A stretch of DNA of 64,000 nt from Apophysomyces variabilis (lineage: Eukaryota > Mucoromycota > Mucoromycetes > Mucorales > Mucoraceae), in contig MZZL01000403.1 in assembly GCA_002749535.1 (NCBI GenBank), positions 1 through 64,000 of the forward strand, written 5' to 3'. The notes beneath the pieces are model-generated. The model worked only from the letters and a program-made list of their open reading frames with translations, made no database searches and had not been told where the DNA came from. Of this stretch, positions 20,922 through 54,129 are shown in pieces (positions within the stretch are counted from its first letter, which is position 1; each line of letters begins with the position of its first letter). A program made the position numbers and the translations under genes.

Positions 20922-22761
20922 CCCCTATCTGCCCGATCAAAATGCGCCGGCATCACCGATAGATGCAGCGGGTATCTCTAAGCCAACGCTACGCAAACAT
21001 GTGCTAACATCAAATCCTTGTGTTACGAGTGGCTGTTTCAAAGATCATATAGAATCTAAGGTTTTTAAAAACCCAAACATCTCCTTAGTAGTCATTGCCA
21101 TTCAACTGGGATACTGGTGAAAAGCTCGCAAGATAACTGATGCGAATAGAAGGCCTTCCTATCCAACTTCAATGATAACAGTTTTCTCGGGCCTCAATAA
21201 CAATGACTATCTGTCATTGATACTTTGTCTTCCTATATGCCACTTCTGTAATTGTTCTTAAGGATAGTCGTTTCAAAGTGACAACTTTCTTACGATAGAA
21301 CTTTTTATGGAAACGTACGGGGTTAGGATACAGTTACAGTGATCAGACTTGTGAAAACGTTCAGCTCACGGATGCTGCGTTCCGTTATAGATAGAAATTC
21401 CTTAACAACCCGTTCAGGGGCCGGTGACAATTCTAGTTAGCAAGAAGACAAGTTGAAAGACATCTAAAGATTCTCTGGAAAGTTCCAAACCACTCCTTTG
21501 CTTCTGAATCTAGACTGAGAAAGGATAGCTACTCTCAAACACTTTGTACCGGGATATAGCACTAATTTGGCAGTTATGTATATCAAGGTTTACATTGTTT
21601 GTTTCCACATATGTAGTCTAGCCTTTTTAATCAAATGTCAAAAGGAAAAGGGCAGAGATAGACCAATGCGCATAGTTATGTTTTCTATGGTGTGATTCAG
21701 GCACTTGATCACTACTGTGTTTCCCAAGAAACATGTTCACAATGCATGACAAGGAATATCGCAGCCCATTAAAATTAAACGATTGATCTAGTTTGGGTGG
21801 GCATTTCTATCATTTTTTGCGTCCAATACGACAATTACATAAAGACAAGATTGCTAATCAAAATTAAATGTAACAAGGAACGGAACTTTATGTTCTCTCC
21901 TCCTCTTCTACAAAGTTCCATAGTGTGAAAAATGAATGTAATTTCCAAAGCTCTATAGGACGCCTTCATGGGATGCAAACCACAATATGACACACCTGAT
22001 GCATCTTAAGAATATCTCACATGGAGAATCCCAGTTTTGATATCAAAGTTTGAGATCTACTGCTAGTGGTCAAGATTTCCTGCTCGCGAAAAGAGCAGCA
22101 AAGAGTTCTTTGGATACTCTTTCGCTTACACTACAATTGATATGATGAGGTAAAATATTTAGAGCAATACGGTTTGACAACGTCAAGCTCAGTTTTCCAA
22201 ATGCGCCAAGCGAATTTGCAAGAAGCGACTGGATATTTGTAAATATATTATGCCATATATTTAATGTCACTCGACTTGTCAACAGAGATAGAATAAATAT
22301 TTTATCCTGATATTATCACTGACGGCACTGGTCTATTTTGGATTTTATTTGGTTAACTTAATCAGATGGCGACACCTGTACGGTACTTTTAACGAAGGTT
22401 GAATGTCATGGTGTCACCGCTGACATGTGTTTTGAACAAGAATCCTCGAAAGTTTATGTCCGTGTATGACTGCAATGTTTATTTTCTGTTTCCAAGTACG
22501 CAAATATACGGGATAGCTAAGCCTACAATAATTGACCAATCCATACGAGTAAATTTTACGCATTCTATCTACAGGACAACAATCTCTATACATCGTATCA
22601 AGCACTGAAATAAAAGTTCTAATGTACCATTTGCATGTTCGCCCTGTATGACGCGCGTAATCCGTGTGGATAGAAAATCTTCTACTCTTGCTTACTGCGC
22701 TTTCAACATCAAATTGATAGTCACGGTATGGGCCAAAGTTTCGAAAAAAAAAAAAAAAAAA
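20922..22761. other. Gene-poor stretch before the assembly gap
   Basis: Only short frames (up to about 90 codons) without family resemblance. The sequence is AT-rich and looks like decayed intergenic DNA. Confidence 0.4.
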
Positions 22762-22991
22762 NNNNNNNNNNNNNNNNNNNNNNNNNNNNNNNNNNNNNNN
22801 NNNNNNNNNNNNNNNNNNNNNNNNNNNNNNNNNNNNNNNNNNNNNNNNNNNNNNNNNNNNNNNNNNNNNNNNNNNNNNNNNNNNNNNNNNNNNNNNNNNN
22901 NNNNNNNNNNNNNNNNNNNNNNNNNNNNNNNNNNNNNNNNNNNNNNNNNNNNNNNNNNNNNNNNNNNNNNNNNNNNNNNNNNNNNNNNNNN
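22762..22991. other. Assembly gap (230 N) inside an A tract
   Basis: The unknown bases are flanked by 18 A on the left (22744-22761) and 16 A on the right (22992-23007). The missing segment is probably homopolymeric or low-complexity sequence. It lies about 100 bases upstream of the eIF2B alpha start codon. Confidence 0.95.
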
Positions 22992-23091
22992 AAAAAAAAA
23001 AAAAAAAGGATCTGTACAGGAGTTGAATACAAATCACGACTTACCGTAGTGCTTTTTTAATCAGCAGCGACCTTATATAAAGAAAATAAGC

Positions 23092-33839: not shown

Positions 33840-36800
33840 ATGCCACACGTTCGAGAGCACTCAGTAGAAACTATCCGCAGAAACAGTGAGGTCATGGGAA
33901 GCCTCCGGAAATTGATGGTGGTCAACCGTGGTGTAAGTTGAAAGAAGAGAGAATCATCCTAAATGCTTTTGTTCATATTTCTAATCTGATAAATAATACA
34001 TGCTTTCTAAAAGGAAATCGCCATTCGCGTTTGCCGTACCGCTCACGAACTGTCTATGCGAACTGTGGCTATTTTCTCACATGAGGATCGATTGTCAATG
34101 CACAGATACAAGGTAAAATAACATAGCGAAAGAAAACGGATGGGCAAAAAAAAAAAAGGGTTTTGTCTTTCCCCACGCTTGCCCATCCCCGGTTCGTAAC
34201 AAGTCACCTTCTGGTTTTACTGATTTCACATCTTGATAAATGGATCCATCTAGGCCGACGAATCTTACCAGATTGGTCAGCTGGGTGAATTTACCCCAGT
34301 CGGTGCTTATTTGGCTCAAGATGCCATTGTCAAAATCGCCAAAGAACGCGGAGTATCGATGATCCATCCTGGTTATGGTTTCTTATCCGAAAACGCAGAA
34401 TTTGCACGCAAGGTGGAAGCAGCAGGTATTACCTTCATTGGTCCATCTCCCGATGTCATTGAAAGTCTGGGTGATAAGACCAAAGCAAGACAAATCGGTA
34501 AGTTTGGATTTTCAGAAAATACATTTAAGAAGGAAAAGGCAAAGGCATTGGGAAAATTCCAAAAAAGGTTCGGTTCATGTAAACCTTACTTTCTTTTTTC
34601 TTTTTTTTTCTTTTGTTTGTGTTCCTTTAATATTTTTTGTTTCATGCGCATGTTGCATACGCGTGGGAGAGAAATATGAAAGACAAGAAGAAGCAAAGAA
34701 AAAAGAAAAAACAAGAAAAAGAAAGCGAGGTGTACTAGATTATCTGTGCTTGTGTTTCGCGCGCGACAAAAGATCAATAATAAGAGAGAAAAGAGAGAGA
34801 GACAGAGAAATTGATAATGCTAATTTTAATTTTTTTTTTGTGTACCTTTAGCCATGGACTGTCAGGTCCCTGTGGTCCCTGGTACTCCCGGTCCAGTGAG
34901 TGAGTTTAGCGAAGCCAAGGAGTTCATCCAGAAATACGGTTTCCCTATCATTATCAAGGCGGCGATGGGTGGTGGTGGCCGTGGTATGCGTGTGGTACGT
35001 GATGAAGCTTCCCTGGAGGATGCCTTCAATCGAGCCAAGTCCGAAGCCCTCTCTGCTTTCGGTGATGGCACGGTATTCATCGAACGTTTCCTGGACAAGC
35101 CCAGACACATTGAAGTTCAACTGTTGGGTGATCGTGCTGGTAACGTCGTCCATCTGTTTGAACGTGATTGTTCCGTGCAGCGTCGTCATCAAAAGGTGGT
35201 TGAAATTGCCCCGGCTAAGAACTTGGATAATACCGTACGTGAGGCCATCTTGAATGATGCGGTCAAGATTGCCAAGCATGTCAAGTACAAGAACGCCGGT
35301 ACTGCTGAATTCTTGGTCGATGCCCAGAACAGACATTATTTCATTGAGATCAACCCACGTATCCAGGTCGAGCACACCATCACCGAAGAGATCACCGGTA
35401 TCGATATTGTGGCGGCTCAGATCCAAATCGCGGCCGGTGCCCTGCTGCCCCAATTAGGTCTCACCCAGCAACGTATCCGTCAGCGTGGGTTTGCTATCCA
35501 GTGCCGTGTAACGACGGAAGATCCCGAGAAAAACTTCCAACCGGACACGGGAAAAATCGAGGTCTACCGTTCCTCGGGTGGTAACGGCGTCCGTCTCGAT
35601 GGTGGTGCAGGTTATGCTGGTGCCATCATCACCCCGCACTACGACTCTCTCCTGGTCAAGGTCTCATGTTCCGGTTCGACCTACGAAGTCGCCCGACGCA
35701 AGATCGTGCGTGCCCTCGTGGAGTTCCGTATTCGTGGTGTGAAGACCAACATCCCTTTCCTTCAACGTCTCTTGACCCATGACACCTTTATAAATGGCAA
35801 CTGCTGGACTACCTTCATTGATGACACGCCTGATCTTTTCCGTCTTGTCCAGTTCCAGAACCGTGCTCAGCGTTTGTTAGGTTATCTTGGTGACGTCGTT
35901 GTCAATGGCTCCCCTATTAAGGGTCAAATCGGCGAACCCTCGTACAAACATGAGATCGAGGTTCCCGTCCTCCGCAACAATACCGGTAATGTCGATGTCT
36001 CTGCCCCACCTACCGAAGGCTGGCGTAAGATCATTGTTGAACAAGGTCCGGATGCTTTTGCCAAGGCCGTTCGCGCTTATCCCGGTGTGTTGATTATGGA
36101 TACCACCTGGAGAGACGCTCATCAGAGTTTATTGGCCACACGTGTCAGAACAGTTGGTAAGGGCCTATTTTTTTTTTATTTTTCGATGCAGCTCCCCCAC
36201 TTTTTGGATTTAAAACACCGGCAGACTAAAAGAAAAAAAAACTCATCACAATATTTTTTTTTAAGATCTCCTCCGAATTGCTCCCGCCACTTCGCACGCT
36301 TTGAGCAACGCATTTTCTCTGGAATGCTGGGGCGGAGCCACATTTGATGTTGCTATGCGTTTCCTGTTTGAGGATCCTTGGGATCGTCTCATTCAACTCC
36401 GCAAGGCCGTGCCCAATATTCCCTTCCAGATGCTCCTTCGTGGTGCCAATGCTGTCGGTTACACTTCTTACCCTGACAACGTTGTGTATGAATTCTGTGA
36501 CAAGGCTGTCAAGGCCGGTATGGATATCTTCCGTATCTTTGATTCGTTGAATTACATCGAGAACATGAAGTTGGGTATTGATGCCGTCAAGAAGGCCGGT
36601 GGTGTGGTCGAAGCCTCGATTTGTTACACGGGGGATGTGTCTGATCCGCAAAAGAAGAAGTACGATCTGAACTACTATGTCAACCTGACCCAGGAGCTTG
36701 TGAACGAAGGCATTCATATTCTTGGTATTAAGGATATGGCTGGCCTGCTTAAGCCCGAAGCAGCCAAGTTGTTGATCGGTACCATCCGTCAGAAATTCCC

Positions 36801-38049
36801 TGATCTTCCTATCCATGTTCACACCCACGACACGGCCGGTACCGGTGTAGCCTCGATGATGGCTGCTGCTGCTGCAGGTGCTGATGTGATCGATGTGGCT
36901 ATTGATTCCATGTCCGGTATGACCTCCCAGCCCGCCATGGGTGCCCTCGTGGCTGGACTTGAGCAAACCAACCTGGGTACGGGTATCCGTATGGAAGACG
37001 TCCAGGCGTTGAACTCCTACTGGGAGCAGTGCCGTCTGTTGTATTCCTGCTTTGAGGCCAATGTCAAGTCGGCCGATTCGGGTGTCTATGAGCACGAAAT
37101 GCCTGGCGGTCAGTACACCAACCTGATGTTCCAGTCGCAGCAGCTTGGTCTGGGTACGCAATGGAAGCAGATCAAGAAGGCCTATGCCGAAGCCAATGCC
37201 CTCTGTGGTAACCTGGTCAAGGTCACACCTTCCAGCAAGGTGGTTGGTGATCTGGCCCAATTCATGGTGTCGAACAAACTCTCGGCTGAGGAGCTGGTCG
37301 AACGTGCTGCCACATTGTCTTTCCCTACTTCCGTTGTTGAGTTCATGCAAGGTTACCTTGGTACTCCCTATGGTGGTTTCCCTGAACCTTTGCGTTCGCG
37401 TATCATTCGTGATCTTCCCCGCATTGAGGGCCGTCCTGGTGCCAGTCTGCCTGCTTTGGATCTGGCCAAGTTGAAGGAAGAATTGACAGAGAAGTATGGC
37501 AAGAGCATTCGTGATTATGATGTCATCTCTGCGGCCTTGTACCCCAAGGTCTTTGCTGAGTACCGTGATATTGTGGCCCAATACGGTGATTTGTCGGTGG
37601 TACCCACACGTTACTTCTTGGCTAAGCCAGAAATCAATGAGGAGTTCCACGTTGAGATTGAAGAGGGTAAGACGTTGATCATCAAGTTGCTTGCCGTCGG
37701 TCCCGTCAACAACACCGGCAAGCGCGATGTGTACTTTGAACTCAATGGTGAGGCTCGTGTGGTCGGTATCACGGACAAGAACGCGGCTGTGGAAACCATT
37801 ACTCGCGAGAAGGCCAACCCCTCCAAGCCTGGTGATGTCCCTGCCCCCATGTCGGGTGTGGTTGTCGAAGTCCGAGCCAAGGAAGGTACCACCATCAAGG
37901 CCGGTGACCCAATTTGCGTGCTCAGTGCCATGAAGATGGAAACCATCGTTTCCGCTCCCGTTGCTGGTCGCGTCGAACTGGTTCCCATCCAAGAAGGCGA
38001 CTCCCTCTCCTCTGGTGATCTGGTCGCCAGATTGGTCAAGGAGGCTTAA
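33840..38049 (+). CDS. PYC: Pyruvate carboxylase
   Basis: Biotin enzyme converting pyruvate, bicarbonate and ATP to oxaloacetate; cytosolic in most fungi, and no transit peptide is seen. Five exons: 33840-33932, 34014-34112, 34254-34497, 34852-36156, 36266-38049, phases consistent, 1174 aa (yeast 1178). Order: biotin carboxylase ([13 protein letters not shown]-grasp loop [20 protein letters not shown]), carboxyltransferase ([57 protein letters not shown]), tetramer region, and the biotinyl domain with the carrier lysine in LSAMKMET. Codon use is strongly biased (GGT, GTC, AAG), which suits high expression and creates long antisense open frames. The third intron is 354 nt, far longer than its neighbours. 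AATAAA at 38314-38319 may be its polyadenylation signal. Confidence 0.98.
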
Positions 38050-38420
38050 TTCTTCTTCTTTATTCCCACCGCGAAAAAAAAAAAAAAAAAACAAACACAT
38101 TTCTTTCTCACATACACTTTATCTCTTTTCTCTCGCTCTCGCTATCTAGTTTTTCTATTTTCCTCTTCCCTTTTTTGTGGTCTCTCTATTATAACGGGTG
38201 GTTCATGATGTCGTACGTACAGGGTGTTTTCTTTATTTTCCCTTATAAAAGGTAAAAGAATGAGTAAAAAACCATTTTTTTTGTTCTTTTGTATCAACGT
38301 CTTTTTTTTCCTGAATAAAAATTGATTATGTATTTGACATGTTCATTTGTCCCAAGTAGTAATATACCTATTATCCATCTCAAACAAAAATGTTACATTG
38401 GGAAAAGAGCATGTTTTGGA
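38050..38420. other. Convergent 3' regions of PYC and LEO1
   Basis: T-rich sequence between two converging genes. It has an A run at 38073-38090 and no coding frame. Confidence 0.5.
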
Positions 38421-43384: not shown

Positions 43385-44600
43385 ATGGTTTATATCCCAT
43401 TCAAATTTCAAGCGTTTAAATTTGATGGCATCTGTCAAACCGTCGCACTGTCTCTATGTCCGCTGATTGGAAAATTCGACGGAGTTGAACCCATTTGTTA
43501 TGCACGGAACGTAGAGATTGCTGGGATACTAGTGTTTCAACCAGGTGAACTGCCAAAAAAGAAATGAAGAAAGCCTTAAACCTCATTACCCTAACTGATC
43601 TATTGGGTTTCCATTTTGTTATATAAAAAAAAACATAGCTACGTTGATCATGGGATTGGTGGCTATCTTTATGACAAGTATTATGTTATATCATGTTAAG
43701 ACCAAATACACGGCAGTAGGTAAAAAAGCGGGAATGAGAGATCAAAAGGAAAAAAGGGAAATAGTTACAATAATGAGGAAATCGGTGATTAGGACGAAAA
43801 GAAATCACCATGTTTTTTCAACATTACCTGATTACGGTGTTGTTCGAAATATTATTGGTCACTAACATCATTCCGACCGCATCCATTCTTTATCCAGTAA
43901 GTCTAGGCTTGTATTATTTGGCACACTGTTCTATTTTCTTTCTTTGCTTCTTTTTTTCTTTTCTCATGTTCTTGGCTTAGGTATTTACTGCAGCTCATTT
44001 GGGTCTAATTAGCGCCACATTCTGGTGTCTATTATTGAATGGGTTTGTTGGGTTTCAGTTTGCAGAAGATGGAACACCAATCAGTTTATGGGTAACACAA
44101 AAAAATCACCCGATCATGAAATGTCAGTGTGGTGGCTTGACATGTGTTCTTGTAAACTTTTTAACTAGTCCATCCGGATCAGTTCATTTGCGGTCTTTGT
44201 CGTTGTTGGATTTATCGCCATCGCTACCTTCTATAACATCGGCCCATTTAACTACACAACGCCTATTGTTTTGTGGCTGGTTTTCTATGTTATCAACACA
44301 GCATCCTTCGTGATTTATACGCTATCCCAGATCCTACTTGTGCTATGTACGTTGGATGACCGATGGCCGTTGGGTGACATCCTGTTTGGCACGTTCTTTT
44401 TTGTGTCTGGTCAAGTAGTCATGTATGTATTCTCTGCAGCATTATGCGAGCAGGCAAAACATTACTTAGACGGTCTATTCTTGGGTTCTATGTGCAATCT
44501 CTTGGCAGTGATGATGATATACAAATATTGGGATTCCATCACAAAGGAGGATTTGGAATTTTCAATCGATTCGAAACATCACCACACACTTGCAACGTAA
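43385..44600 (+). CDS. CHS7: Chitin synthase export chaperone
   Basis: Multi-pass ER membrane protein needed to fold and export chitin synthase (Chs3 in yeast). Five exons: 43385-43544, 43639-43719, 43793-43896, 43981-44091, 44169-44600, phases consistent, 295 aa (yeast 316). Family blocks: CPLIGKFDGVEPICYARNVE, MLYHVKTKYTAVGRKE rebuilt exactly across two introns, FWCLLLNGFVGFQFAEDGTP, then PFNYTTPIVLWLVFYVI and ALCEQAKHYLDG. About seven membrane segments. The start at 43385 is the first in-frame ATG; the first 10 residues are uncertain. It is one of several wall genes in this half of the window. Confidence 0.93.
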
Positions 44601-44842
44601 CTCAGTCCTTTTTATTTTCGCACACACACACACAGAACATGCGCACATTATGGATACACAAGCACCCAGAAAAAGAGAAAAGGACACCAAAAATTAAAAC
44701 GCCGTTTTTGGCAAGGCCTATAAATTAAAATTTTCTCAAACCGTTTTTTTTTTCCCATGTTTTCTATTTTGATGTGTTGATTCATTTATTACTTCTCTCT
44801 CTTAATCTCTCTCTGTTTTCCATATACACATATATACAAACG

Positions 44843-45172
44843 ATGACAGTGTTCATGCGGCATTTTCGGGCACTCATCCCAGAAAAGAAGCAATCAGCAA
44901 AGAAATCATTGCAAGTCAAGATCAGCAAGGATCCACCAACCATCCAATACTACGAACGAGATCAACTGGAAGATACCTTTGAATGCATCTTTGATCCCTT
45001 TGTATGTCATGATGAAGAAAAAGATCATCCTGACCTTTTCAAATCACGAAATCAACTTAAACCATGGCAAAAACCGCCCTATTCTAATGCTCGATCTTCC
45101 TTCCTCTCCAAACGGGTCTCTTTTGGCTTCTTCCGAAATAACAAATCACATCTCAACCTAATGGCTCTATAA
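44843..45172 (+). CDS. Small uncharacterised basic protein, 109 aa
   Basis: Single exon starting MTVFMRHFRALIPEKKQ. It is Lys/Phe-rich with an acidic Cys-containing middle (DTFECIFDPFVCHDEEKDHP) and a Ser/basic end. A pyrimidine tract and a TATA-like run (44824-44836) precede the ATG. No signal peptide, membrane segment or known domain was recognised. It sits between CHS7 and the SPX-phosphatase gene in the same direction. It could be a lineage-specific protein or a chance frame. Confidence 0.45.
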   Translation: MTVFMRHFRALIPEKKQSAKKSLQVKISKDPPTIQYYERDQLEDTFECIFDPFVCHDEEKDHPDLFKSRNQLKPWQKPPYSNARSSFLSKRVSFGFFRNNKSHLNLMAL

Positions 45173-45468
45173 ACCAAAAAATTACTATTCCTCTTTTCTT
45201 GTATAAAACTTCTATCCTTATTTACCCTTTGTCATCTTACCACAATCCGCTTGTACATTCCTTTCTTTTTTTTCACTTCTACTTCTTGTTTATGACTACT
45301 TGGTTAAAAAATGCATTAAAGTCATCTAATCCAATCACTTGAAGCAAAAACAACATTGTCTGATCTGAGTCAACAGGACTGTGTTTTTTCCCTTTTTTTG
45401 TTCTCCCAACCCGACGGAATTGCCGAAGAGAAGAGAAAGAGATACCCCTTTCCTTCTCGCTTTTGGAT

Positions 45469-47649
45469 ATGAAATTTGGCAATTATCTTGACGAGCGTAA
45501 GGCGCATCTTCCTTCTGATTATGCCGCACACTGTATTGATTACAAGGCGCTGAAGTTTCTACTGAAAAGCACCGTCTATACACATTCGATCAAAATCGCG
45601 CCAACGGAAGAGCCCCAGCGACCGTTTGCGGAAGTCGTTTCGCTTCGTCTAGGTCAGCTGCAATACGTAGAAGCAGCTTTTATTCGGGAGTTGGATGCGC
45701 AGGTGGAGAAAGCATGTGCTTTTTTCGAGCAGGAGTCCGCTAGACTGGTGACAGAGAAGTCCATGTCAGACATGGATTTGCTGCAGAAGATCCTGACCCT
45801 CGAACGCTTTGTCTTCCTCAATTATACCGGCATTACAAAGATTCTCAAGAAGAATGACCGTCATTCTGGCCTTTCCCTGTCAGAACCTTACCTTCATCGC
45901 GTGGCTCAACTTCCATTAGTCCAGGCCAAAGAATTAACACAACTGAAGCAGCAGATCATGACACGTTTGAATGAGACGGATGTGAACCAAGTTCATCCTT
46001 TGTCCCCCGTCATGTTACGCAGCCGGTCCCAGTATCACCTCACTCGTTCCAGCGTTCTCCCGCCTGCCTTGGTCGGTCCTAACCAGAAAGTGCTTGTTTC
46101 TCTTTCAGGACCCCATGGAACGGATATCATTGGTGCTGTTCTGGAGTGTCTGGCCCGTCATCCTTGTACAGTGGATGACTTTATGCTCTCTCGTCTTTAC
46201 CACAATGTCACGTTTGGTGTCCTTCTGACATTGGGTTCAGACAATGTGAATATCTTCCGTGACTTGGCCGAAGCTGCACATAAGTGGGATGCTTCCTTGA
46301 CCTTCGACGTGCCTGATACTCAGGCCACCGAGCCCTCCGTACGTCATCAGTCCAAGTTAGAGGATAATCGACCATTGAACGCCGTTCCGGCTTCCTTGGA
46401 GGAGGCACCCTATGCCAACCGTATCAAATATGCGGCTACAATCCTTAATCAAGATGGTCTTGATTCGGCCTTCTTGAGAGACTGGACCCAATTTCTTTTG
46501 AAAAACCGCATTTCTGTTGAAAAGCTTTCACGATTGAACTTGGACGCCAGCAAACTCTCCTGTGCCGATATGCGCTTGAGTGTACCTAACACGGTGGATG
46601 TCGATGCCTTGCGTGCTGATCTCATTGCTCTCTCGGCAAGCCATAATACTGACGTCGCCTTGCAACCCGATGATGTCTTCCGCAAGAACAAACGTCTTGT
46701 TGTGTTTGATATGGATTCAACACTAATCCGTCAGGAAGTCATTGACGAGATTGCTCGATATGCGGGCGTGGTTGACCAAGTTGCCGTAAGTGAGATAGTG
46801 GATGCCTTCGTTCATAGCCGAACTGAATCTATTTATTTTAGGCTATTACCGAAGCAGCCATGAACGGAGAGATTGACTTCAAGGAATCCTTACGACGTCG
46901 TGTGGCTTTGTTAAAGGGGACGAATGTGAATGTGATCGAAACAGTCAAACAAAGCTTGACCTTCACTGAGGGAGCCCATTACTTATGCCGTGCTTTGAAG
47001 AAATTAGGGTTTAAACTAGCCGTGATCAGTGGTACGTCTCATTTGGTTTGAAATGGAAACGAGATGACACACACACACACACACACGCATCGTTCTTTTT
47101 TTATTAACACACTCAGCTTTTTCTTACTTATTCTAGGTGGATTCATGCCACTAGCGTTGTATGTCAAAGCCGAATTAGGATTAGACTATGCATTCGCGAA
47201 TCAGGTGCGAGGATCTTTTTTTTTGTCTCTATCACTATCTATTTTACTGATCCGCCCATTGTGTAACAGCTGAAGGTATCGCCCGATGGTTTGACATTCA
47301 CTGGTGAAACGATTGGACCAGTCGTGGATGGCATTCGCAAAGCAGAATTATTGGATGTGATTGCACAAACCGAAGGTGTTACGTTGAATCAAGTCATCGC
47401 AGTAGGCGATGGTGCCAATGATCTTTGGATGTTGAATAAGGCAGGCCTGGGAATTGCGTTCAATGCTAAACCCAAAGTACAAGAACAGGTATATATACCC
47501 ACATACGATTTTTATTCTGTATATATTCATGCAATTCATGCGTCTCTTTCTTTTAGGCACGAGCAAGAATCAACCAGAAGAGTCTGAAATATGTCTTGAC
47601 ATTACTTGGTTATTCCGAAAAGGATATGGAACAACTTGGCAGAGAATAG
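45469..47649 (+). CDS. SPX domain fused to ACT-type phosphoserine phosphatase (SerB)
   Basis: Predicted phosphoserine phosphatase (phosphoserine + H2O to serine + phosphate) with an N-terminal SPX sensor. Five exons: 45469-46785, 46842-47031, 47137-47204, 47270-47488, 47557-47649; phases agree, 628 aa. Residues 1-140 are SPX: MKFGNYLDE, YKALKFLLK with Tyr25, Lys29 and Lys33, then LNYTGITKILKK with Lys124, Lys127, Lys128 and Arg131, matching the inositol-phosphate pocket. Residues about 207-282 and 318-395 look like two ACT domains as in bacterial SerB. The HAD domain has FDMDSTL (Asp414, Asp416), ITEAAMNGEIDFKESLRRRV, VISGGF and GDGANDLWML, all intact. SPX, both ACT domains and HAD motif I lie in one 1317-nt exon, so the fusion is not a model error. 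SPX control of activity is inferred. Confidence 0.93.
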
Positions 47650-48172
47650 GCGACAAGACAATGAACAATATCCATTTTATACATATTCGATATACTTTTA
47701 AACCAATAGACATAACATTACGACAGATAGAGCGGAGGAGATTCCGAACTTTTGTCTTACTAAAGGACTATTCTTTTCTTTTTTTGCATTTCACTCCAAC
47801 TCCCCTCGCAACTTTTTTTTTTTCGTATTTTGTGACTTGCTCCATTTGGAAAAGGGCAAACGCGGGCTCTCGCGTCTTATTTGGAGTGTCCCTTTCTTTT
47901 TCTTCTGTCCTCTTAAAGAAAAAGAAAAAAAGAAGTCTGATTCCTGTTGTGTGTACGGCTTAGTTTGAAGAAACAAGTCCACTTAAGTTGTAAGCGAAGC
48001 AAAAGAAATGAACGACTTGCCAAGAGCATAACAAAAAGAATGAATAACCTTTTGTTCCTTTTCTCTCTGTCAAACGACTCGTAGACTCAACAAGAGAAAA
48101 AGAAAACCGCTCGTCATCCTAGATATAGTTTTCTCTCGCATCGCATCGCTAGTAGAGAAACGGATTCGCCCA
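47650..48172. other. Intergenic, no gene seen
   Basis: 3' region of the SPX-phosphatase gene and promoter of the SET gene, with T runs at 47810-47824 and pyrimidine tracts. No coding frame is supported. Confidence 0.4.
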
Positions 48173-50896
48173 ATGGAATCTACAAAGGCGTTGAGCATTG
48201 CACGACCTGAAGATGTTGTTGACTCACCTTTATCGTCTGTCGTGCCTGAAGGAATGACCAGTGTGGACTTCACGGACCAGGAGTGCGAAAATAGCAATGG
48301 GACTGACACGGATAAGGAGAATCATTACCATCACCATGATATCAATGAGAAGGTGGAGAAGGAAAAGACGGTAATTTTAGGTGAAGGTCAGCATCCAGCA
48401 ACAAAACAACAGGAAGACGATATCAACCACGCTATCCCATCACCGCCATCTTCCTTGGGGTCCCATTCACCGAATTCGCCTCCTACATTTAAGCCAGTTC
48501 CTTGTAAACGAAAATTAGACGACACTTGCATTCAAAGTGGGGAAGAAAAACAGACCAAAGCTGTTCGCCTCGATGATTCAGATACATGTTGCAACCCGTC
48601 ATTATCATCGTCACCCTCCTCCTCCTTGTTATCACCGCCACCTGCAGATGATCTTCCGACTACCGAGCAATCAGGATCTACCGAGGAGCCGCCAATATGG
48701 TGTCGTCGATGTGGTGTGACCGAATCGGTCCGCTGGCGATATGGTCCTTTAGGGAAAAGCACGTAAGTAGAGCGGTTAAGAGATCGACAGGCGGTGAAAA
48801 AGAGGGCAACATGTGTAAAGCAGCAAGAAGACTGATTGAAGGATATCTGTTTTTACTTGCTCATCTTTCTTTTCAGACTTTGTAATGCTTGTCACCTTCG
48901 TTGGAAATCAGTAGGGAAACCGGATGAAGGTTATAGTTATACGACATATCCTCCCGAGGGAGCTGCATCCATTCAGGCAGCAAGAAAACCTAAATCCAGA
49001 TTGTCTGGAACCAAATCGAAGAATAGATCGTCAATACCAAGGCCAACAATTGTAAAATCCGCGAAAACGACGATAGAAGCAGAAGAAAAGACAATAGCAA
49101 GGCCTATCAGACGTAAGTTACCAGCTCATCGTGATTCTACCTTGGTGATATCTTTGGATTAAAAAGGCATGATTGTAGAACGAAAGACAAAGGCACCTAC
49201 TCCTGAAGCTTCCAAAGACGCATCATCACCATCATCAATACCATCATCATCCTCATCAGCTTCGACGGAGAATCTTAAGCCTACCTTAGAAAATCCGTTC
49301 AGCCACATCCCGACGGACGAAAACATGGTTCAGAAAGAGTGCTGCACTTTATGTAATGCAACGTCAACATCACTATGGAGAAAAGGTCCAGCTGGTCCTA
49401 GAACGTAAGATGTTCCTCCCTTCTATTTTTTTTTTAGCGAATCGTTGAATGGGATAGCTGAACTTTTTTTTATTTCTCTACCTATATTTATATATTAGTT
49501 TATGTAATGCTTGTGGATTGCGATGGGCTAAATGGCAGCAGGAATCAGGAACCATGACGACAACCACATCGAATAGAGCTTTATCGAGTGCGACTAAAAC
49601 GGTGACAAATGATAAGACGAAAGAGGCCATGGCTGCTGACCTTGGACAGCAATTATTACGTAACAGAAAAGTCTTTCTGAAAGCCGGTATGTATGCTGCT
49701 CTTCACAAATCCGTAGCGACAGCGACTACTTCAAGACCGCGTAAAGCAGCAGCAGCGATGAAAGGACCTCCGAAAATGCATTGGAAAGGCAATGGAAGTC
49801 AGACAGGGGGAAGCTCCAAATTTACCGTTCCTACACCTATTCATCAAGGCACGTTTATTATGTCGACCGTCAGTGATTTCTGTCTTCCACCGGATATCAT
49901 CCAAGAGTATGAATTGGGCTTGATTGGTAAATTTGGCTCAAGGCCTACGTTGATGAAGAAACCGTCCTTTGTCCGAATTCGCTCAAGTAAGAGGGTATGC
50001 GTGCCTGTTTTCTTTTGTCTAAATGCGTGGGTTAGATATCTTTGTGGAGCGAAAAGCAAACAGAACCGAACATCAGGTAGCATGCCAATGCATACCTCCT
50101 ACCAATGGTGAACTGGGTTGCGGAGAAGATTGTTTGAATCGGTAAGTGAGATTCCAAGGAAGAAAAAAAAAAGAAGAGAGCGGGGGTCTTTCTAATACGA
50201 GCCATTGGAATTAGTATGTTATTTTACGAGTGCGAACCTAAATCGTGTCCTTGTGGTGACAAATGCTCTAATCAAAGGTTCCAGCGGCGAGAAGGACGAA
50301 AAGAACTGGACATTTTTCTGGTAAAAGATTCAATCTCTTCTATTTGCTTGTTGTAGGTATTTTTAGGTTGTAGACGGCTGATTTCCCTTTCATGTTTTAC
50401 AGACGCGTGAACGAGGTTGGGGTTTACGTACATTGGCCGAAATCAAACGAGGTGAATTGATTATTGAATATCGTGGTGAAATTATATCCCACAAAACGTG
50501 TGAAGAACGCATGAACACATTGTACAAACATCAAAAGAATTTTTACTTTCTGGATTATCGGAACGGCGAAGTGATTGATGCGTGTACGAAAGGAACCGAA
50601 GCACGATTTATCAATCACAGCTGTGATCCGAATTGTCACATAGAAAAATGGTAGGTGTCCTCCATTGTGTGTGTTTTCTTATTCGGACGCCTTTTCTTAT
50701 ATTCGGTTCGTTTTCTAGGGCTTTAAGAGGTGAACTACATGTTGGTGTCTTTGCATCCAAAGATATTCCAGCGAATTCCGAACTATTTTATGATTATAAT
50801 TTCTCAGTATTTGGCAATACCGAAAGTCAACAGCGTTGTTATTGTGGCAGTACTAATTGTCGTGGAACGATTGGCAGAAAAACAAAGTCGACGTGA
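48173..50896 (+). CDS. SET-domain histone methyltransferase with two GATA zinc fingers
   Basis: Likely H3K36-type lysine methyltransferase of the ASH1/NSD/SET2 group. Eight exons: 48173-48762, 48877-49112, 49167-49404, 49499-49986, 50036-50141, 50215-50320, 50403-50650, 50719-50896; phases agree, 729 aa. A Ser/Pro-rich disordered N-terminus leads to GATA finger 1 (CRRCGVTESVRW...LCNACHLRW) and finger 2 (CTLCNATSTSLW...LCNACGLRW), both C-x2-C-x18-C-x2-C. Then AWS (CQCIPPTNGELGCGEDC, CPCGDKCSNQRF), SET (RGWGLRTLAEIKRGELIIEY, RFINHSCDPN, ELFYDYNF) and post-SET (CYCGSTNCRG), all catalytic and zinc residues present. The domain order with DNA-binding fingers is unusual. The WW and SRI domains of Set2 are absent. 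Confidence 0.93.

Positions 50897-51336: not shown

Positions 51337-54129
<2,793 letters not shown>

Follow-up and report, generated by a model that had tools for sequence, protein, structure and literature searches.

The window analysed here is a stretch of 64,000 nucleotides from Apophysomyces variabilis, and its plus strand carries a gene whose product joins an SPX domain to two ACT domains and a HAD phosphoserine phosphatase. The features of this gene are as follows.

45469..47649, plus strand: whole gene, start codon to stop (628 amino acids, 5 exons)
45469..46785, plus strand: exon 1, with SPX, ACT1, ACT2 and the HAD nucleophile motif (1317 bases, 439 codons, unbroken frame)
45469..45984, plus strand: SPX domain, residues 1-172 (profile, sequence and predicted fold)
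45541..45555, plus strand: Y25 to K29, a span bounded by two PBC contacts (Y25 and K29) in the site for inositol phosphates (Vtc4 alignment, invariant columns)
45838..45861, plus strand: K124, K127, K128 and R131, KSC and PBC contacts on helix 4 (Vtc4 alignment, invariant columns)
45985..46077, plus strand: linker, residues 173-203, probably flexible (pLDDT below 50 at residues 173-197)
46078..46317, plus strand: ACT1, residues 204-283 (ACT_6 match; predicted fold)
46420..46668, plus strand: ACT2, residues 318-400 (structure model; alignment to M. avium SerB2 chains)
46681..47649, plus strand: HAD phosphoserine phosphatase, residues 405-628, exons 1-5 (TIGR00338)
46786..46841, plus strand: intron 1, GT-AG
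47032..47136, plus strand: intron 2, GT-AG
47205..47269, plus strand: intron 3, GT-AG
47489..47556, plus strand: intron 4, GT-AG

GT-AG borders were found in all four introns, and the spliced frame encodes 628 residues. The open frame of exon 1 starts at 45364, just past a stop codon, and the SPX start is its first ATG. This stop-free frame of 499 codons covers SPX, ACT1, ACT2 and the HAD nucleophile, with the joint between SPX and the enzyme lying inside it. Since exon 1 alone holds all of these parts, the fusion is written in the DNA itself and does not depend on how the gene was modelled. GC3 along the gene ranged from 0.44 to 0.61 (SPX 0.51, linkers 0.61 and 0.54, ACTs 0.48 and 0.50, HAD 0.44), and a mis-joined gene model was ruled out by the continuous frame across the joint together with this level GC3. 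SPX, ACT and HAD were the only Pfam families above cut-off in the whole protein, with no membrane domain. The original prediction of an SPX domain, two ACT-like domains and a HAD phosphoserine phosphatase in one gene was borne out by the Pfam scan and the spliced gene model, as was its statement that SPX, ACT and the catalytic Asp motif share a single exon.

The gene is flanked upstream by a gene for a Chs7 chaperone and downstream by one that is probably of GATA type (19.7 bits, under the cut-off); neither has an evident functional link to the fusion gene. The CACGT motif was absent from the 296 bases upstream (45173-45468), which gave no sign of PHO-type transcriptional control there, and Rfam yielded no match across 43500-50000. 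Elsewhere in the window, 498 consecutive T at 51623-52120 form a remarkable homopolymer, unless they arose as an artefact of assembly or polishing, and a minus-strand frame at 22414-23040 has a long run of X (N bases) between runs of Phe codons. Two further minus-strand open frames, at 34848-35453 and 36226-38118 (201 and 630 codons), lie antisense to a pyruvate carboxylase gene and are probably a by-product of codon use.

The N-terminal domain has the helical SPX fold in the predicted structure and scored 35.2 bits with PF03105 against a cut-off of 27.8 (42.4 bits with its neighbours in the frame). Similarity to SPX is modest, at 35 Pfam bits and 21-29 % identity to six other SPX copies of the same genome. 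In Vtc4, mutation of Y22, K26 and K133 (PBC) or of K129, K132 and K136 (KSC) lowers InsP6-stimulated polyP synthesis, according to the accessible part of Guan 2023. Alignment placed Y25, K29 and K128 at the first three positions and K124, K127 and R131 at the others, so that five of the six contacts are identical and one is changed from K to R; R also occupies the R131 column in two of the six other SPX copies. Across the seven SPX sequences from the A. variabilis genome, the columns without variation include Y25, K29, K124, K127, K128 and D130. K33, on SPX helix 2 (residues 25-33, 45541-45567), is Glu in the Vtc4 row and adds one more basic side chain close to the ligand contacts. The earlier claim that the SPX ligand residues are kept held for Y25, K29, K124, K127 and K128, which match Vtc4 contacts. 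Judged by these residues, the SPX surface appears competent for an inositol-phosphate ligand. Kept contacts are not proof of a sensor, because the contacts in the SPX of Vtc3, though present, are described in the same accessible text (Guan 2023) as partly buried, and mutating them has little effect in the complex.

The C-terminal part scored 270.8 bits with TIGR00338 against an equivalog cut-off of 144.15. It keeps the M. jannaschii PSP residues at 11 of the 11 catalytic and substrate positions compared. By profile and alignment, the HAD part is a SerB phosphoserine phosphatase with its active-site residues intact. Two ACT folds precede it, as in tandem-ACT SerB2; the assignment of ACT2 is based on the structure model and three alignment rows, the model itself having been built on an alignment that includes tandem-ACT SerBs. 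The structure models gave no predicted packing of the domains (pTM 0.36 and 0.43). In ACT1, the GxDxPG motif of tandem-ACT SerB2 is replaced by GPHGTD (residues 214-219), whereas the prokaryotic relatives keep D in 15/15, P in 15/15 and G in 14/15 rows. H216 aligns with Asp17 of M. avium SerB, a hypothesised L-Ser contact in the accessible text of Pierson et al. (Pierson 2023). These replacements weaken the proposal, made earlier, that serine controls the enzyme through ACT.

We carried out profile searches over the A. variabilis genome (38.7 Mb, 126 contigs), in which match counts are lower bounds. At least 23 SPX matches were obtained and grouped into 15 genes; partner domains came from a Pfam scan of 20 chosen frames, several genes combining frames by position alone. 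The 14 SPX genes other than the fusion comprised three of SLC13 type, one EXS, two ankyrin genes with GDE1-C2 (GDPD being seen in one of the two), one RING and seven VTC. Three of the SPX-VTC genes form a tandem trio on the same strand (L027, G000:C94:125500-135300). At another locus (L022, G000:C73:195000-199500), SPX frames are followed by a RING-finger frame, an arrangement resembling the SPX-RING type such as plant NLA; Pqr1 of S. pombe is a RING-type SPX protein. Phosphoserine phosphatase was absent from the partners of all 14 genes, in agreement with the original prediction that it is no known SPX partner.

No other SerB locus was found in the genome with TIGR00338, PF12710 or the protein itself as query. 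The fusion protein matched its own locus and gave three weak SPX matches. Of the 15 TIGR00338 matches, three are exons of the fusion gene and the other 12 are weak, at 36 to 19.9 bits. Of the two weak matches inspected, the one on contig C75 was a P-type ATPase by eye and the one on C24, matched by PF12710 also, was a different HAD protein without SerB motifs. PF12710 gave four matches, two of them below cut-off; the two above it were the C24 protein and, on C92, a P-type ATPase by eye. This negative is weak because the search missed the fusion gene itself, and intron-split HAD genes may escape it. Going by these searches, the fusion gene is likely to be the sole SerB of A. variabilis, and its product the sole enzyme for the final step in making serine. 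The remaining steps of the phosphorylated serine route seem to be present, with a PSAT match of 410 bits within one exon (443.6 being the cut-off for a complete protein) and, at three loci, PGDH-like matches that all stay below cut-off. Three loci have IPK-family genes and one matches the N-terminal domain of PPIP5K (Vip1), and therefore the inositol-pyrophosphate ligand can probably be made in A. variabilis.

SPX carriers named in the accessible literature are transporters, VTC, Pho81, Gde1, RING, MFS, EXS and SPX-only proteins, and phosphoserine phosphatase is absent among the partners named there, again as predicted. No SPX-phosphoserine phosphatase was found in the searchable literature, which covers few subscription papers and no preprints. 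Both terms occur in PMC7614388, where they are unrelated, and in PMC9657601 (sugarcane miRNA). Both halves of the protein are canonical; what is new, as far as the literature searchable in this way shows, is their pairing and what it implies, and database entries with this architecture may exist.

The pairing suggests that the phosphate supply of the cell tunes serine production, itself a phosphate-releasing route, and phosphate gating of SerB through SPX is plausible. Our main reading, to which we give a probability of about 0.6, is that inositol pyrophosphates bind the SPX of this SPX-ACT-ACT-PSP protein and alter phosphatase output. Inositol pyrophosphates would report cytosolic phosphate and bind SPX, and the bound SPX may pack differently on the ACT pair, or dimerise beside it, thereby altering phosphatase output. 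Tied to ACT1 by about 30 flexible residues, SPX could shift ACT packing or the oligomer state. Since control of tandem-ACT SerBs works by way of the ACT interface and the oligomer state, an SPX linked to ACT1 would be well placed; such oligomer- and ACT-based control of activity is reported for M. tuberculosis SerB2 in the accessible texts of Pierson 2023 and Yadav 2014. The ACT route is not general, because the oligomer change induced by L-Ser in M. tuberculosis SerB2 is not found in two close orthologues (Pierson 2023, accessible part). It is possible, if speculative, that the amino-acid switch in ACT1 of an ancestral tandem-ACT SerB decayed and that SPX took over, inositol pyrophosphates replacing or supplementing serine feedback.

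As to the sign of control, we lean tentatively, from metabolic logic alone, towards restraint by ligand-bound SPX when phosphate is plentiful; at low phosphate, release of the enzyme would let serine synthesis return phosphate to the cell. If inositol pyrophosphates turn on a phosphate sink, VTC, they should restrain a source. PMC7864628 (accessible text) counts serine synthesis among the sources of phosphate and expects it to increase when phosphate is limiting. The opposite sign, activation by inositol pyrophosphates, appears the less likely of the two.

SPX might instead bind inositol phosphates as a docking, localisation or turnover module that leaves catalysis unchanged, for example by contacting VTC, an SPX-RING protein or another SPX carrier. 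This alternative is supported by SPX domains that act by protein contacts, namely in the homotypic interaction within VTC (PMC10167327) and in the plant SPX-PHR and NLA-PHT1 pairs, all as given in accessible text, and by the SPX-RING candidate on C73 of the same genome. However, the SPX is attached directly to a regulatory ACT pair and has no known partner, and we consider a pure docking role rather unlikely. Still less probable is an inert SPX passenger, left by a neutral accident that survived since the enzyme works. The modest Pfam score fits such an origin, and with the fusion compared in one genome purifying selection on SPX is at most presumed; but the ligand residues are kept despite 21-29 % identity to other SPX copies, which is not expected of a drifting domain. 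That annotation or assembly wrongly merged an SPX-only gene with a SerB gene has a negligible chance, with nothing found in its favour and both the unbroken frame across the joint and the steady GC3 against it.

If phosphate control through SPX is correct, a central biosynthetic enzyme would be under direct SPX control, a class not listed in the accessible SPX literature, and serine synthesis would be a directly controlled internal source of phosphate in A. variabilis. The SPX proteins known from the same accessible literature serve as phosphate transporters, in polyP synthesis, as a phosphodiesterase, as a kinase inhibitor, as ubiquitin ligases or as plant regulators; with SPX on a phosphoserine phosphatase, the direct sensing of phosphate would reach into amino-acid and one-carbon metabolism. 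The fusion would also allow a concrete molecular test of phosphate-releasing biosynthesis as a phosphate source, an idea set out in the accessible part of PMC7864628. The protein is a single chain without a membrane domain, and therefore binding and kinetics should be measurable together.

Relatives of the enzyme part were sought in prokaryotic contigs with query-derived patterns, which bias the resulting list of taxa; 80 of 108 confirmed loci were retained. Scans of viral contigs with exon 1 (6 patterns) and the SPX alignment (1 pattern) confirmed nothing and are weak negatives. Among the 80 loci retained, the closest sequences were tandem-ACT SerBs of Desulfuromonadales, Myxococcales and Flavobacteriaceae. 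One of them (L046) reached 43 % in its best segment, with a match extending over residues 4-424 of the ACT-PSP query, and the HAD part of the fungal protein was 63 % identical to prokaryotic tandem-ACT SerB over 221 residues. A tree was built from the fusion gene and 25 of the 80 loci, 26 rows in all; L051, also chosen, was left out because its extracted sequence contains a stop. In this tree the fungal row adjoins Bacteroidota and one Desulfobacteraceae row. This placement is unstarred (85/86) and the branch is long (1.31), and therefore we claim no origin for the fungal SerB.

Compared with known systems, the fungal protein differs from prokaryotic tandem-ACT SerB, which has no SPX and keeps GxDxPG intact in 14/15 rows, while the motif is lost in the fungal ACT1. 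Mycobacterial SerB2 (ACT-ACT-PSP; M. avium SerB 3p96, 5jlp) likewise has no SPX; the GxDxPG motif is lost in the fungal protein, which has His216 at the position of Asp17 in M. avium SerB. The known SPX subfamilies (VTC, EXS, SLC13, MFS, RING, GDPD and SPX-only) are defined by partner domains, or by SPX alone, that do not describe the fusion. Gde1-type SPX-ankyrin-GDPD proteins, represented in the same genome by L025 with ankyrin repeats, GDE1 C2 and GDPD, also carry SPX on a soluble enzyme of phosphate recycling but differ in the partner enzyme and pathway, Gde1 hydrolysing glycerophosphocholine (PMC7381174, accessible text). Vtc4 and VTC resemble the fusion in that SPX stands at the N-terminus and the ligand contacts agree, and in VTC inositol phosphates control the enzyme attached to SPX, as far as the accessible text goes. 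VTC, however, is a membrane complex in which phosphate is stored as polyP, whereas the fungal fusion is a predicted phosphate-releasing biosynthetic phosphatase without a membrane domain.
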